IMG/VR virus record: IMGVR_UViG_3300005337_000010
Coordinates: 1 to 46,489 of that record
Origin: a virus
Strand: one strand, 5' to 3'
DNA length: 46,489 bases
Position numbers and translations under genes: made by a program. The notes under the pieces were generated by a model, which was given only the letters and a program-made list of their open reading frames with translations, was not told where the DNA came from and ran no database searches. Below are positions 27,762 through 46,489 of this stretch, piece by piece (position 1 is the stretch's first letter; each line of letters opens with the position of its first letter).

Positions 27762-28580
27762 TTGGCTAGCCCGAATCTCTACAATCACGGGGCTGGAGGA
27801 ACGACAGGGTCAAGCCTGGCGACCTCCAGCCCGCTGTATGCGCTCAATGGCGGCCATTTGTGGTACGTCAGTAGTACGACGGGCGCAGACGCTGCCAGCC
27901 CGAGAGGCGAGGACCGTGCCAAGCCGCTGGCGACGGCTGCTCAGGCTGTCACGAACGCCTCGGCAGGTGACACCATCGTTTTCCTGTCGGGGCACACCGA
28001 GAACCTGGCAGCCGCAATCGCCGCGTCCAAGCTTGGCCTCAAGTTCGTTTCGGAAGGCACCGGGGCGAACGCGGCTCGGTTCACCTGCGCGTCAACAGGC
28101 GGGTGCTTCAACATCACGGCTGGCACGGTTCTTTCTGGGCTGTACTTCCCCGCCTCGACGACCGCGGCCACGAATGCGCGGGTGGACGTAGCGACGGCCG
28201 CGCCGTGCCTGATTGAGAATTGCACCTTCGATCAGGGAGCAAGCGACACCACAGCGGCGATTCGATGGGGCTCGGTCGCGTCGTCCGTGGGCCTGAGGAT
28301 CGAAGGGTGCAGCTTCACGGCGACGGCCGCCACGCAAGCCGCCATCTCGATCTCTGTTGTTACCAACGCCGCGTCAGCGCTCACGCTGCAAGACGTGACC
28401 ATCGACGGTGGGACCGTGGGATTCTCTGATTTCGCGATTAAGCTGGCAGTCGCCGCGACTAACATGGATGTCAGGAACTTGAACCTCCTGAACAACTCCC
28501 ACGTCTCTCTCGCGGCTGGCTGCACCGGTACGCTACTAGTCGGTACGGTGTCCGGAGGCAGCAGGATCGAGCAGAGCTAG
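27762..28580 (+). CDS. Beta-helix virion protein, paralogue B (272 aa)
   Basis: TTG 27762 lies near GGGAGGG. The protein shares with the previous gene the order of GGHLWYVSSTTGADAASPRG, PLATAAQAVTNASAGDTIVF, LSGHTENLAAAI and helix rungs (IENCTFDQGAS, IEGCSFTATAA, LQDVTIDGGT). The aligned DTIYVGPGHAENV and DTIVFLSGHTENL show the duplication. An HNH gene on the other strand overlaps its last four bases, so the insertion is immediately after the stop. Confidence 0.75.
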   Translation: MASPNLYNHGAGGTTGSSLATSSPLYALNGGHLWYVSSTTGADAASPRGEDRAKPLATAAQAVTNASAGDTIVFLSGHTENLAAAIAASKLGLKFVSEGTGANAARFTCASTGGCFNITAGTVLSGLYFPASTTAATNARVDVATAAPCLIENCTFDQGASDTTAAIRWGSVASSVGLRIEGCSFTATAATQAAISISVVTNAASALTLQDVTIDGGTVGFSDFAIKLAVAATNMDVRNLNLLNNSHVSLAAGCTGTLLVGTVSGGSRIEQS

Positions 28581-29035
28581 GCGACATGGCGCCAGATCTT
28601 ACGGAGCATGATTTCAGAGACCGTCTGTTGGCTAATCCCCCAACGTGCTCCGATGTCTTTTTGTCGCTCGATACCGCGAAGCTTTCGAATCTCGGAGACG
28701 ATGGTTTCGCTCACGACAGCCTGCGGGAGTTGAGCGCCGCGCGCGGGAATAGCGCGCCCCTTCGCGACCATGTCGTCGCGGTTGTCCTTGTAGGTCCCAA
28801 GAAAGAGATGCGCCGGGTTCACGCACGGCGGATTGTCACAGCGGTGGCATACGATCATGCCTTCCGCGGACGCCCCGGAAGCCTCCATTGCGAATCTGTG
28901 CGCGAGGAGTGTCTTTCCGAGATGCCAGAACTTCCCGTATCCGACTGGCATGCGGACCGCCGTCCACAGCCAGCAGTCGTCAGGACCGCGCTTGTCGACC
29001 TTGGCCCAAAACCGCGCTACCGTCTTCTCATCCAT
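28577..29035 (-). CDS. HNH homing-type endonuclease, antisense insertion (152 aa)
   Basis: I start at ATG 29035 because GGAGGT lies five bases before it; the ATG at 29047 is upstream of that site. The protein has FWAKVDKRGPDDCWLW, the HNH core IVCHRCDNPPCVNPAHLFLG (H64, N73, H76) and a C-terminal helix-turn-helix (KDIGARWGISQQTVSEIM) for target recognition. Free-standing HNH genes nick or cut an unoccupied allele and copy themselves by recombination. Orientation against the late transcript and the intergenic position mark it as a mobile gene. Confidence 0.93.
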   Translation of the reverse strand: MDEKTVARFWAKVDKRGPDDCWLWTAVRMPVGYGKFWHLGKTLLAHRFAMEASGASAEGMIVCHRCDNPPCVNPAHLFLGTYKDNRDDMVAKGRAIPARGAQLPQAVVSETIVSEIRKLRGIERQKDIGARWGISQQTVSEIMLRKIWRHVA

Positions 29036-29118
29036 GGGAACCTCCATTCTCGTGGGTCACGACCGCGGCGTCTCGTAAACGCGCGCGGTCAATCTCATCC
29101 TACCACGGAGCAGGCGTA

Positions 29119-43031: not shown

Positions 43032-43664
43032 GTGTATGTTACGCTGCCGGGCACGAAGCCGGAGATCGCTTACGCAATGCGGAGCGTGATGCCGCTCGGG
43101 GACTCAATCACGCTCGGATACCCGGACAATGTCGGCGGCTGGCGCAAGCCCGTAATCGCGGAGCACCCGTTGCTGTCGTCGGTAGGGACGCAGCTTGACA
43201 GCACAGGTATACCGGCTTCGCAGAAACACGAGGGGTTCGGAGGGCGCAACTCGGGATCGGCGCTCGCCGGAGTCGCCTCGTGGTATGGCGCATGGCCGGC
43301 TAGCATCGTCCTGCTTCAGCTCGGGACGAACGACCTGACTGGGTACCCGGCGCCGCTGTACACCGAGGCGCAGTATGCTACGCAGATGCGTGGCGTAGTC
43401 GACATAATCCGCGGCATCAACGCGAACGTGAGGATTTTCATTGGCAAGCTGCCGTATCCAAAACTCGGCGTGTACCCTGTGTCAGTGATCGATTCCTACC
43501 GTGCCGCCCTGTCCGCCGCCGTGGCCGGCGTAGCCAACCTCAGCGAGGTCGACTTCCCGCAACTTCCTGACTCTGGATTTGCCGACGCCTTGCACCCGAA
43601 TGCGGCCGGCTACGCGGCGATGGCAGTGACGTGGTCAGCGGCATTATCGGCTGCCGGTTACTGA
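43032..43664 (+). CDS. SGNH/GDSL-type hydrolase (210 aa)
   Basis: Block I MPLGDSIT (S25 nucleophile), block II with EGFGGRNSG (G and N of the oxyanion site), block III LGTND (N100) and block V DALHPN (D185, H188) give the full SGNH set. These esterases remove acyl groups from polysaccharides or lipids. Next to tail genes, a de-O-acetylase for host surface glycans is the likely role. The GTG at 43032 is three bases after the previous stop; ATG 43077 is an alternative that would still keep block I. Confidence 0.88.
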   Translation: MYVTLPGTKPEIAYAMRSVMPLGDSITLGYPDNVGGWRKPVIAEHPLLSSVGTQLDSTGIPASQKHEGFGGRNSGSALAGVASWYGAWPASIVLLQLGTNDLTGYPAPLYTEAQYATQMRGVVDIIRGINANVRIFIGKLPYPKLGVYPVSVIDSYRAALSAAVAGVANLSEVDFPQLPDSGFADALHPNAAGYAAMAVTWSAALSAAGY

Positions 43665-43672
43665 CGGCTGGA

Positions 43673-44053
43673 TCAGAATACATACCCGATGTAGCTCCAC
43701 GTCCCCGACACGGTCACGTCAACGCCCGATGTGTTCCGGACCTGCATCGTTAGCGTTCCTGGCGATGAAACGAATGCATAGTCGACCAGGATCGCGGCCG
43801 GTATCGCGGCCGGTGGCGACATCGTCACGTACATGCCTGGGATTGTGTTGTCCACGCCAAGATCAGATCCGCCTACCGACACGTCTGTAAATGTCACACG
43901 TCCCGATGTGCCGGCCGCGATTAGCTGTGTCCAACTGAACTGACCGCCCCGGAACTTCTGCGCCCGCTCCCACATTCGACGCGCCGTGCGAAATGTCTCA
44001 ACCTGGTTGCGCGAGTTTTCGTTCGGGAACGGATACGGCCAAATCAGCGGCAT
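43673..44053 (-). CDS. Small antisense gene with beta-rich product (126 aa)
   Basis: The start is ATG 44053. The frame can extend to 44383 but the upstream part is arginine/cysteine-rich antisense of two plus-strand genes, so I exclude it. MPLIWPYPFPNENSRNQVET and FRTARRMWERAQKFRGGQ precede a beta region (GRVTFTDVSVGGSDLGVDN, YVTMSPPAAIPAAILVDYAF, LTMQVRNTSGVDVTVSGTWS) that looks like a virion decoration domain. TAGAAT lies eight bases before the ATG. Confidence 0.66.
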   Translation of the reverse strand: MPLIWPYPFPNENSRNQVETFRTARRMWERAQKFRGGQFSWTQLIAAGTSGRVTFTDVSVGGSDLGVDNTIPGMYVTMSPPAAIPAAILVDYAFVSSPGTLTMQVRNTSGVDVTVSGTWSYIGYVF

Positions 44054-44074
44054 TTGGTGATATTCTAATTGAAA

Positions 44075-44299
44075 ATGACCGATCAGGGGCGCCACCTGAC
44101 CGCCATTTCCATCGCCGCAGCGGTGGCAGTCGCGGCGTCCATCTTCAAGGTGTGCGACCAGCAGCTCTACATGATCGCATCGGGCATCATCGCGGGTGAG
44201 TACGCCCTGGCTCGGTCTGCTCCATCGGCGCCCACGACTGTTACGGGGCGCATCGACCATCCGGTGACAATCAACCAGGGAGCAGATGGCGCGAAATGA
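44075..44299 (+). CDS. Small membrane protein, holin candidate (74 aa)
   Basis: ATG 44075 (TTG 44069 also possible). MTDQGRHLTAISIAAAVAVA is followed by a hydrophobic stretch and then a polar C-terminal half (YALARSAPSAPTTVTGRIDH). One membrane segment and first position in the lysis cassette make it a holin or pinholin candidate; the hydrophobic part is short, so this is tentative. Confidence 0.55.
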   Translation: MTDQGRHLTAISIAAAVAVAASIFKVCDQQLYMIASGIIAGEYALARSAPSAPTTVTGRIDHPVTINQGADGAK

Positions 44300-44564
44300 G
44301 GAATACGCCCTCGATCGGACTCCAAGCCTGTGGGACAGGATCTGGCGTGGGCGGTCGAGCAGCCACCGACGAGCACTCACCAACGCCGGCGTTCACGCGG
44401 CACAGTGCGCGGCTGCTCTCGGAGAGGCTGCGCGACTCATCGACGAGGCTCCAAGCGACCGTCGAAAGGCTGAGGGGCGCGCGCTCTCCCTCCAGATTCG
44501 CGACCTGGCTGAGGGGATGATGGCCTGCGCCGACCACCTAGACGCCGAGTTCGGCGATGGGTGA
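44286..44564 (+). CDS. Unknown lysis-region protein (92 aa)
   Basis: ATG 44286 follows GGGAG and overlaps the previous gene by 14 bases. A basic N-terminus (DRTPSLWDRIWRGRSSSHRR) leads to helices (HAAQCAAALGEAARLIDEAP, LSLQIRDLAEGMMACADHLD). No transmembrane segment is evident. Unknown; overlaps the next start by eight bases. Confidence 0.65.
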   Translation: MARNEEYALDRTPSLWDRIWRGRSSSHRRALTNAGVHAAQCAAALGEAARLIDEAPSDRRKAEGRALSLQIRDLAEGMMACADHLDAEFGDG

Positions 44565-44838
44565 CACGTCCGAGGAGGAAGTCCTCCACATCCCGCCCGA
44601 CCACGAACTGGAGGCCGACTTCGACGTTCACGAGGCGCCGACCAAGCCTGGATTGCCGCCCGGCCTCTCCGACGAGATTATCGACGTCCGCACCGACCTA
44701 CGCACGCTCCTGGTCGCTGCGGCCACGCTGTTCGGTCAGATGGAGTACGCCAAGGACGCTACCCGCCATACCGCTCAGATCGGGAAGGCAAGGTTCGCGC
44801 TGGCTCAACTGGTCAAGAAATACGAGGGACTCTCATGA
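44557..44838 (+). CDS. Unknown acidic lysis-region protein (93 aa)
   Basis: An acidic N-terminus (SEEEVLHIPPDHELEADFDV) and a helical C-terminal half (RTDLRTLLVAAATLFGQMEY, RHTAQIGKARFALAQLVKKY). Its stop overlaps the ATG of the orphan lysozyme start (ATGA), showing that lysozyme was originally the next coupled gene. Confidence 0.68.
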   Translation: MGDTSEEEVLHIPPDHELEADFDVHEAPTKPGLPPGLSDEIIDVRTDLRTLLVAAATLFGQMEYAKDATRHTAQIGKARFALAQLVKKYEGLS

Positions 44839-44900
44839 CCGATTCATCCCGTTTCGTGCCCGACCTGATTCACTGGGAGGGTAACGTTACCGCGTTCTAG
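44835..44900 (+). pseudogene. Orphan 5' fragment of the lysozyme gene (21 codons)
   Basis: ATG 44835 overlaps the previous stop (ATGA) as normal genes here do. The peptide contains FVPDLIHWEGNVTAF, aligning with FIPDLIRWESSVPHM of the intact lysozyme at 45558 (9 of 20 aligned residues identical, catalytic Glu kept), and stops at TAG where the intact gene has the Tyr codon. The HNH gene starts 14 bases after the stop. This is the cut-off start of the original lysozyme gene. Confidence 0.8.
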
Positions 44901-44914
44901 GCATCTCAATTTGT

Positions 44915-45583
44915 ATGCGGACGCCGACGTTGGATAGGTTCTGGTCGAAGGTAAGCAGATGCGGAGATGATGAGTGCTGGGAATGGAAGGCCAAGCGAGA
45001 CAAGGACGGCTATGGCCGGTTCTGGGACGGCACGTTTACGCCTTCCGGCAATGGTCGCATGGTAGGCGCTCACCAGTTCAGCCTGTCGATTGCTACCGGC
45101 GAGGAGCGAGGTGACAGGTGGGTCCTCCACCGCTGCGACAACCCTCCGTGCGTGAACCCAAAGCATCTGTACTTCGGCACCGTCGTCGACAACTCACGCG
45201 ACATGATCTCCAGGGGCCGGGGTGGCAAGAAGCCGCATGACCCTGCCTTCTGCGGCGAGCGGATTGGAGGAAGCCGTCTCACCACCGAACAGGTGATTGA
45301 GATCAAGTCGGCCGGGTCTGACGTTCAGAACACGCAACTCGCCGCCGTGTACGGCGTTAGACCGACGACCATATCGCAGATAAGACGCGGCGGATCCTGG
45401 AAGCACATTCAGGCGACTGGAAGCCCTGCAAAGAGAACCGGGGCTCACAACAAAAGAATCTCTGAGGCACTCAGGGGCAACAAGAACGCCCTCGGCTGGA
45501 AGCACACGGAAGAGTCCAGGGCGAAGATCGTCGCCTCCTGGCGAAGGAGAAAGTCAGATGGATGTCGCGAAATTCATTCCTGA
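44915..45583 (+). CDS. HNH homing endonuclease inserted at the lysozyme start (222 aa)
   Basis: Shares the family opening DRFWSKVSRCGDDECWEW and the HNH core LHRCDNPPCVNPKHLYFG (H72, N81, H84) with the enzyme at 28577. It then has a helix-turn-helix (NTQLAAVYGVRPTTISQIRR) and a NUMOD3-like DNA-binding end (RISEALRGNKNALGWKHTEE). No Shine-Dalgarno site is seen at ATG 44915. The last 26 bases overlap the new lysozyme start in another frame. The two HNH genes are relatives but clearly distinct. Confidence 0.93.
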   Translation: MRTPTLDRFWSKVSRCGDDECWEWKAKRDKDGYGRFWDGTFTPSGNGRMVGAHQFSLSIATGEERGDRWVLHRCDNPPCVNPKHLYFGTVVDNSRDMISRGRGGKKPHDPAFCGERIGGSRLTTEQVIEIKSAGSDVQNTQLAAVYGVRPTTISQIRRGGSWKHIQATGSPAKRTGAHNKRISEALRGNKNALGWKHTEESRAKIVASWRRRKSDGCREIHS

Positions 45584-46109
45584 TCTGATTCGGTGGGAGT
45601 CGTCAGTCCCGCACATGTACCGTGACACGCTCGGATACGTGACCGTCGGAGTTGGCAACCTGGTCCACGACGGCCTAGATGCTGTCTCGCTGCCGTTCCT
45701 GGTCGACGGTGAGCGCCCAGCGTCGCCGAAGGAGATCGGGGACGACTTCCTGCGTGTCATCGCGCTCGCCAAGGGCATGCCCGCCCGCGCCTACCGGGCC
45801 CCGAATCCGCCGCACATCGAACTGTCGCAGGCGTCGATTGGCGACCTGCTTCGCAACCGCCTGAACCGCGAGTTCCAGCCGGGAATTCACAGACTGCTGC
45901 CAGATTTCGACGGCTACCCGGAGCCGGTGCAGGCGGCGTTGATTGACATCGCCTTCAACTGCGGCGTGTCTGGCCTGTCGACGTTCCATCACCTGCTCGA
46001 CGCGTGCCGCAAGCAGCAGTGGGCAGCGGCAGCGGAGTCGTGCCACCGCAAGACGAGCCGCGCCGAGAGGAACGATTGGACGCGGTCGAAGTTCCTGGAG
46101 GCCGCATGA
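45558..46109 (+). CDS. GH24 lysozyme (endolysin) with displaced start (183 aa)
   Basis: The T4-lysozyme-type catalytic triad has exact spacing: E14, eight residues, D23, five residues, T29 (IRWESSVPHMYRDTLGYVTV then GVGN). The rest is helical, with ALIDIAFNCGVSGLSTFHHL near the C-terminus as in the family, and it cuts the peptidoglycan glycan chain. There is no signal sequence or SAR domain, so a holin is needed for release. The ATG lies inside the HNH gene with AAGGAGA eight bases upstream, a self-contained ribosome site, unlike the coupled start of the orphan fragment. Confidence 0.92.
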   Translation: MDVAKFIPDLIRWESSVPHMYRDTLGYVTVGVGNLVHDGLDAVSLPFLVDGERPASPKEIGDDFLRVIALAKGMPARAYRAPNPPHIELSQASIGDLLRNRLNREFQPGIHRLLPDFDGYPEPVQAALIDIAFNCGVSGLSTFHHLLDACRKQQWAAAAESCHRKTSRAERNDWTRSKFLEAA

Positions 46110-46489
46110 CCCGCCTCATCCTCGCCGTCCTACTCCTCGGCGCCTGTCGCCAGCAAGTCAACTTGCTGCCCGACCCGAAGTGGTCCGCCGTGCCAATCAC
46201 GGTGCGCTGGGACGGCATCGATCCGGTGTTCGACGGCTCGCTGCACTACGCGGTCGACGCCTGGAATCACGCAGCCGGCTGCGATGTGCTGCGGGAGGCC
46301 GCTGACGCGCGCGTGACCGTGTCCACATACGACGGGACGGCTTGCGGCGCACCTGCGCAGCTCGAACGGTCACTCGGCGCGACGGCTGGAACGTGGCGAT
46401 GCTCGGCGGACTCGGCCGAGGTGAAGTTCCAGGTCATGTCGGACATCCGCAGCGTCTACGTCATCGCGGCCCACGAGCTCGGGCACGTC
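46106..46489 (+). CDS. Lipoprotein zinc metalloprotease (metzincin-like), N-terminal part
   Basis: ATGA-coupled to lysozyme. MTRLILAVLLLGAC is a textbook lipoprotein signal with lipobox LGAC (C14), so the mature protein is membrane-anchored. The next 100 residues (PITVRWDGIDPVFDGSLHYA, VDAWNHAAGCDVLREAADAR) resemble the N-terminal strands and helix of matrixin-like domains, and the zinc site begins with HELGHV (123-128) at the window end and continues at base 111. The full protein has 178 residues. Coupling to lysozyme suggests action during lysis or on the envelope. Confidence 0.87.
   Translation, partial: MTRLILAVLLLGACRQQVNLLPDPKWSAVPITVRWDGIDPVFDGSLHYAVDAWNHAAGCDVLREAADARVTVSTYDGTACGAPAQLERSLGATAGTWRCSADSAEVKFQVMSDIRSVYVIAAHELGHV
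46380..46489. repeat. Terminal direct repeat, right copy
   Basis: Identical to bases 1-110. It lies inside the metalloprotease gene, a coding position that is more typical of an assembly overlap of a circular or permuted genome than of evolved direct terminal repeats, which usually lie between genes. Confidence 0.97.

Follow-up and report, generated by a model that had tools for sequence, protein, structure and literature searches.

A phage HNH endonuclease gene that probably invaded a T4-type lysozyme gene and brought another phage's 5' end with it

The right end of a virus genome of metagenomic origin carries a lysozyme gene with two beginnings, one of them a stranded fragment and the other in use, and a gene for an HNH endonuclease lies between them. 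The probable explanation is that a T4-type lysozyme gene was entered, in its 5' part, by a free-standing gene for an HNH homing endonuclease, which imported the corresponding 5' end from the lysozyme gene of another phage. The window, by which we mean the whole stretch of DNA that was analysed, comprises 46,489 bases of one virus record (IMGVR_UViG_3300005337_000010), and the locus is thus described from a single metagenomic record.

All features of the locus lie on the + strand. A small upstream gene encoding 93 aa (44557..44838) terminates in a TGA (44836-44838) that overlaps an ATG at 44835. This ATG, preceded by GAGGGA as a candidate ribosome-binding site (44824..44829), opens the orphan lysozyme 5' end (44835..44900), a frame of 21 codons, MTDSSRFVPDLIHWEGNVTAF, closed by a TAG at 44898-44900. 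The ATG of the HNH gene follows 14 nt past the orphan stop, and no Shine-Dalgarno sequence was seen before it in the segment 44894..44914, which separates the end of the lysozyme homology from the HNH start. The HNH gene itself (44915..45583) encodes 222 aa and overlaps the present lysozyme frame (45558-46109; 183 aa, intact) by 26 nt (45558-45583). The Shine-Dalgarno sequence of the latter, AAGGAGA (45544..45550), is located within the HNH reading frame, 7 nt before the lysozyme ATG. An HNH gene whose last 26 nt overlap a lysozyme start with its own AAGGAGA had been described in the earlier note, and the coordinates bear this out. The lysozyme frame is made up of a foreign replacement 5' end (MDVAKFIPDLIRWESSVPHM; 45558..45619), which includes the catalytic-position Glu14, and a resident remainder (45620..46109), which belongs to the Phage_lysozyme family, contains the Asp23 and Thr29 positions and is close to the relative L064.

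Both proteins can be assigned with some precision. The lysozyme matches the Phage_lysozyme profile PF00959 (E=3e-7) as well as T4 lysozyme chains, and its E14, D23 and T29 are spaced 9 and 6 residues apart, the spacing of the catalytic E11, D20 and T26 of T4 lysozyme. By profile match and by the spacing of Glu, Asp and Thr, it is a T4-type lysozyme (Phage_lysozyme, GH24). The HNH protein contains a zf-His_Me_endon region (residues 20-93), in which the core H..CDNPPCVNPKH is intact, and a NUMOD3 module (PF07460) at residues 175-205, the latter scoring 24.1 bits over a cut-off of 20.4. Its match to PF05551 (E=2e-5) stands at 25.1 bits, slightly under the curated 27-bit cut-off, and matches to phrog_59 (E=1e-24) and phrog_1872 (E=3e-24) are strong; PDB sequences gave no match. 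The protein therefore has an HNH/His-Me zinc-loop nuclease core joined to a NUMOD3-type DNA-binding module, with cutting as a predicted activity. A second endonuclease gene of the same superfamily, of the HNH_3 type, is found at 28577-29047 on the - strand of the window, antisense between + strand genes, and a reading of its flanks revealed no obvious duplicated gene end.

Which of the two lysozyme 5' ends belongs to this genome can be decided by comparison with uninterrupted alleles. Three close lysozymes without an HNH gene are present in IMG/VR (L002/L064, L065 and L066; 77-85% identical). They start MTDASKFVADLIRWEGSVSHMYRD, MTDSSRFVPDLIRFEGSVPHMYRD and MTDTSRFVPDLIRWEGSVPHMYRD, respectively, following the orphan-like pattern MTDxS[KR]FVxDLI...HMYRD and continuing as HMYRDTLGYVT, and in each the ATG overlaps the TGA of an upstream frame, the same as for the orphan. 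The MDVAKFIP start found at 45558 is absent from all three uninterrupted alleles. When all ungapped 63-mers from both strands of the window were compared with the intact 5' end of L002, the orphan ranked first (43/63), ahead of the window's own lysozyme start (39/63) and of a third segment at 33/63; shuffled versions of the orphan never scored above 26, against 46 for the real sequence. The coupled ATG at 44835 and the lysozyme-like character of the frame that it opens, both pointed out earlier, are thus upheld.

The identities along the gene give a consistent picture. Codons 1-15 of the orphan match the three intact alleles at 35, 38 and 40 of 45 nt (78-89% DNA identity), whereas codons 6-21 of the present 5' end match them at 32, 31 and 32 of 48 nt (65-67%). 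From codon 22 to codon 85, the lysozyme gene returns to 88-94% DNA identity with its closest relative, L064, and the difference between the two segments (32/48 versus 177/192) is significant (Fisher p=2e-5). On the strength of this contrast, the lysozyme gene is a mosaic and the orphan is its former start: sequence comparison identifies the orphan as the resident 5' end, and as foreign the one now in use. The proposal of the earlier note that the endonuclease came together with a lysozyme 5' end from another phage gains support from the orphan-like starts of the intact alleles, none of which resembles the start at 45558, and from the divergence of the functional 5' end.

The left junction can be located to about 10 nt. 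Codons 16-21 of the orphan are identical to the relatives at only 8 of 18 nt, and local alignments end at 44887-44893; the earlier claim that the orphan stop coincides exactly with Tyr21 of the intact protein is therefore not established. For the same reasons, the TAG may be part of the element's flank and not an altered Tyr codon. On the other side, the lysozyme is broken between its active-site positions, Glu to one side and Asp and Thr to the other. The DNA at this junction, CACATGTACCG (45612..45622), is identical in four close lysozymes and in L067, a lysozyme that is 33% identical overall. A stretch conserved to this degree is the kind of target expected of a homing enzyme, and we take it as the putative target region.

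The route that we favour is one-sided homing. In the donor, a homologous lysozyme gene would have followed the HNH gene immediately and overlapped it. The enzyme would have made a break or a nick in the uninterrupted lysozyme gene of the recipient near codons 18-23, a region conserved even in a distant lysozyme; HNH enzymes may nick DNA instead of breaking it. With the donor as template, repair would have copied from the conserved site back across the start of the donor's lysozyme gene and on through the HNH gene, a direction that would follow from the donor's homology lying on the lysozyme side. At the other end, a non-homologous join, made without long homology, would have stranded the resident 5' end as the orphan, and the route predicts that the orphan should end near the cut. 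What results is a complete lysozyme in which the Glu position is imported and the Asp and Thr positions are resident. The old site would have been destroyed and replaced by a junction with a different left half, by which the carrier would be protected. The orphan, its coupled start retained, probably now acts as a leader that brings ribosomes to the HNH gene by re-initiation, given this coupled start, the short distance from its stop to the HNH ATG and the want of a Shine-Dalgarno sequence there. As its own Shine-Dalgarno sequence suggests, the new lysozyme start would be independent of translation coming through the HNH frame. An RNA hairpin masking the lysozyme start was considered and rejected, the fold being no better than those of shuffled sequences (z=0.01).

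Searches for a donor, defined as an HNH gene upstream of a lysozyme that starts MDVAKFIP or encodes FIPDLIRWE and without an orphan, used the lysozyme, a two-sequence alignment and a degenerate FIPDLIRWE pattern as queries and found none in IMG/VR or phage records, an absence from these collections that does not amount to exclusion of a donor. Genome contigs likewise contained none, and the phage records yielded a single relative, 30% identical; at the DNA level, phage records gave just short matches to the HNH core. Repeats flanking the HNH gene were limited to short chance matches, the two 5' ends being too diverged to show as repeats.

The arrangement is not confined to this lysozyme. Loci of the window's HNH family were surveyed for a gene end upstream of the HNH gene that resembles the gene end downstream, first at 57 loci and then at 146 non-redundant ones, and the matches were afterwards read by eye. 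A gapped six-frame test of self-similarity was dropped as too noisy in GC-rich loci, where control genes scored equally often, and an ungapped test with a low-complexity filter was therefore used. A score of 46 was reached at 9 of the 146 HNH loci compared with 1 of 400 mismatched pairs (p=4e-5) and 4 of 373 ordinary genes of the same loci (p=0.002), the latter a moderate enrichment. The nine include the window, which prompted the survey, a match at L055 that looks spurious and two related loci (L017 and L152), and two further cases (L009 and L040), which lay under the automatic threshold, were accepted on reading the sequences. Of the four control matches, two are themselves nucleases, a GIY-YIG enzyme in L006 and an endonuclease VII-type enzyme in L199. 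Recurrence is shown by these sequences, and its frequency is uncertain. Candidates at L055, L046 and L175 were not counted, since they have no coherent reading frames, nor were L201 and L208, where the repeated segments are tRNA-like sequence and not gene ends. In these two (L201 1736-1771 and 2666-2701; L208 1711-1947 and 2481-2708), the translations GSNPIL and GFES near the HNH genes look tRNA-like, and an HNH gene may possibly have been inserted beside tRNAs with partial duplication of the tRNA.

The 5' form is found with genes of several kinds. At L009, an orphan MNETTITIIGNLTAAMAGGVG, ending at a stop, is followed by a single-stranded DNA-binding protein (SSB by Pfam) that begins MTQVTIIGNLVADPELRF, and at L140 an orphan ending LYNGITLPNQPDLLTSQ and a stop precedes a DNA polymerase A (DNA_pol_A by Pfam) beginning MPLYGGITLPNSPDLENIRRLD, for which uninterrupted relatives exist (L230 and L233). 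At L040 (2941-4256 of IMGVR_UViG_3300049574_000145), the HNH N terminus is the displaced start of RecT (by Pfam): the orphan MSELTVVKKQGLVAKMADKFGVD continues in frame into the HNH protein, and a diverged RecT start, MNTEVMKKPSLVQKMADRFGVDADKLM, overlaps the HNH stop. At L141, the gene concerned is a putative endolysin, read from sequence, on the strand opposite the HNH gene; it has many uninterrupted relatives that start like the orphan, for example L271 (MNLTLGDTRLII). The four same-strand cases, the window among them, have a common geometry. The repaired gene always starts at or within the HNH stop, with a 26-nt overlap in the window, an ATGA overlap at L009 and L040 and abutting ends at L140, and the orphan either closes at the HNH start or a short way ahead of it (14 nt in the window, a GTGA overlap at L009, about 20 nt at L140) or, at L040, is fused in frame. 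This shared geometry suggests that the element puts the translation signal of the target to use for its own gene and gives the target a fresh one.

The 3' form is seen at L023, L025-L027 and L207, and a variant in which the displaced 3' end is now the C terminus of the HNH protein occurs at L039 and at L018 and relatives. In this variant (L018 2810-3453, also L149-L153 and L039), the C-terminal residues of the HNH protein come from what was once the 3' end of the gene upstream (NRENHQRQESGY compared with NRINHERQNNGY upstream, each at a stop). L006 (5354-6190 of IMGVR_UViG_3300045107_000308) has a GIY-YIG nuclease with NUMOD3 at the 3' end of a gene that, on reading its sequence, is putatively ruvC-like; the nuclease separates the 3' end of this gene, ENEPTLYTCDALLIAEYCRRKHEGLLR with its stop, from a diverged orphan 3' end, ENEPTLATCDALLLAEFCRRKHEGLLS, also with its stop, the two being 69% identical in DNA. 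By its arrangement, L006 is a 3' mirror of the window with another family of nuclease. Across all eleven loci compared, orphan and replacement are 51-71% identical in DNA and 48-88% in protein; they are therefore diverged homologues and not recent duplications, as had been held for the lysozyme. Two other observations were made in the course of the survey. The endonuclease VII-type nuclease of L199 (3345-3831, - strand) has an LPxSxFxLPxExxYP motif on either side, which hints weakly at an arrangement of the same kind. At L224 (2400-3100), two SSB-like C termini (DQEIAF and DDEVPF, each at a stop), each then followed by EDEMS, are found around a small non-nuclease gene.

Other histories could have produced the locus. 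Phage genomes are mosaic, and the boundary within the lysozyme gene might have been set by ordinary modular recombination with the HNH gene as a passenger and not the cause, the activity of this enzyme being a prediction from its sequence; nuclease genes are reported to occur at exchange boundaries (PMC10448857). The enrichment of duplicated ends at these nucleases over ordinary genes, together with the nucleases among the control matches, stands against this, and we regard it as unlikely. Somewhat more improbable again is an origin from tandem lysozymes, whether from an old duplication or from two acquisitions, with the HNH gene entering between the two or within the first, of which the remainder was then deleted. 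This would reach the identical end state without an element-borne gene end, and the two 5' ends are as diverged as old paralogues. However, a second lysozyme is seen in the examined flanks of none of the three close relatives, and the working gene is a mosaic of some 20 distant codons followed by L064-like sequence, which is unexpected of a whole second gene. It would require, moreover, a deletion that ended at the HNH gene and a repeated origin of the same geometry in ssb, recT and pol A genes.

Artefact and splicing have also to be weighed. The exact junction comes from one record and closely similar loci were not found, so that a chimeric metagenome assembly might be suspected; however, the reading frames are coherent across the junction, as are the overlap of 26 nt and the Shine-Dalgarno sequence. 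Since the L141-type locus is present in two different metagenomes and L025-L027 are three records, the type of arrangement is real, and we consider a chimera very improbable. Introns often house HNH genes, and phage lysin genes are known to host introns, so the HNH gene might instead lie within a group I intron or some other element that is spliced out; the orphan would then be the true 5' exon and the second start fortuitous. A scan of 43500-46489 on both strands returned no Rfam match at E≤1. Downstream, the gene lacks nothing, having a Shine-Dalgarno sequence of its own and homologous first 20 codons, and splicing is therefore unneeded and would discard a conserved segment. This is the least probable of the explanations. 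Invasion by a homing endonuclease gene that imports a lysozyme 5' end is the reading that we retain.

What this would mean is that a homing endonuclease can occupy an essential phage gene without splicing, and with the product kept, by means of a spare gene end. More generally, phage nucleases of the HNH, GIY-YIG and possibly endonuclease VII types may commonly enter essential genes by a third route, beside introns and inteins, in which a carried and diverged 5' or 3' end repairs the broken gene and the displaced end becomes the nuclease's leader or C terminus. We put this forward tentatively, judging it slightly less likely to be right than wrong. If it is true, such nucleases are a continuing source of terminal-domain swaps among phage lysins, polymerases, SSBs and recombinases. 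The finding in any case suggests that nuclease genes drive an exchange of phage gene ends that would otherwise be read as unexplained mosaicism or annotation error. The edges of the putative cut site are now defined for direct assay, and a catalogue of further loci is supplied.

The nearest precedents come from fungal mitochondria and T-even phages. In open-licence papers, an incomplete coverage of the literature, we found no phage description of such an end-swapping endonuclease, and the available portion of PMC10448857, on nucleases at phage exchange boundaries, does not mention an arrangement of the window's type. The earlier note knew of no such arrangement in a phage lysozyme; it is not unique, given that the survey reveals 5' and 3' forms with more than one nuclease family. 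Among the T-even phages, mobE, mobA, segF and segG are free-standing homing endonucleases of the HNH and GIY-YIG families (PMC2988022). Like these, the window has an intron-less HNH gene that overlaps its neighbours and is probably translationally coupled, and some of the T-even enzymes target the coding sequence of a neighbour. T4 gene 39/60 (mobA) and Aeh1 nrdA (mobE) are host genes whose product comes as two polypeptides because of the split (PMC2988022), whereas the window's lysozyme appears to be restored to one polypeptide by its imported 5' end. In the T7-like phage Penshu1 (MK903281), the HNH stop and the start of the gene behind it, there endonuclease I, overlap as in the window, but the HNH gene starts immediately at the stop of ssb, so that an orphan of endonuclease I would have no space.

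In the mitochondria of Allomyces (atp6) and Glomus (atp6, atp9, cox2 and nad3), mobile endonuclease ORFs bring foreign C termini with them, and in Glomus the native end is 91-98% and the imported end 64-81% identical to a relative (PMC3630166), values that bear a striking resemblance to those of the window. There, too, an endonuclease ORF brings in a foreign gene end and the orphaned native end is the nearer to relatives, and the window has both an orphaned native end that resembles relatives and a foreign, diverged end in use. The fungal elements differ in being mitochondrial, of the LAGLIDADG or GIY-YIG type and at the 3' end, whereas the window's is in a phage, of the HNH type and at the 5' end; their direct counterparts among phages are the 3' cases L023, L025 and L207. 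Elements of Tremella mitochondria, called introns, carry N-terminal copies of the host gene (PMC7315562), and the order is that of the window: a resident 5' part, then an element with an N-terminal homologue, then the rest of the gene. The window differs in that no intron is detectable and the new start falls inside the HNH frame. The principle is known from fungal mitochondria, and the phage, intron-less version of it appears to be new.
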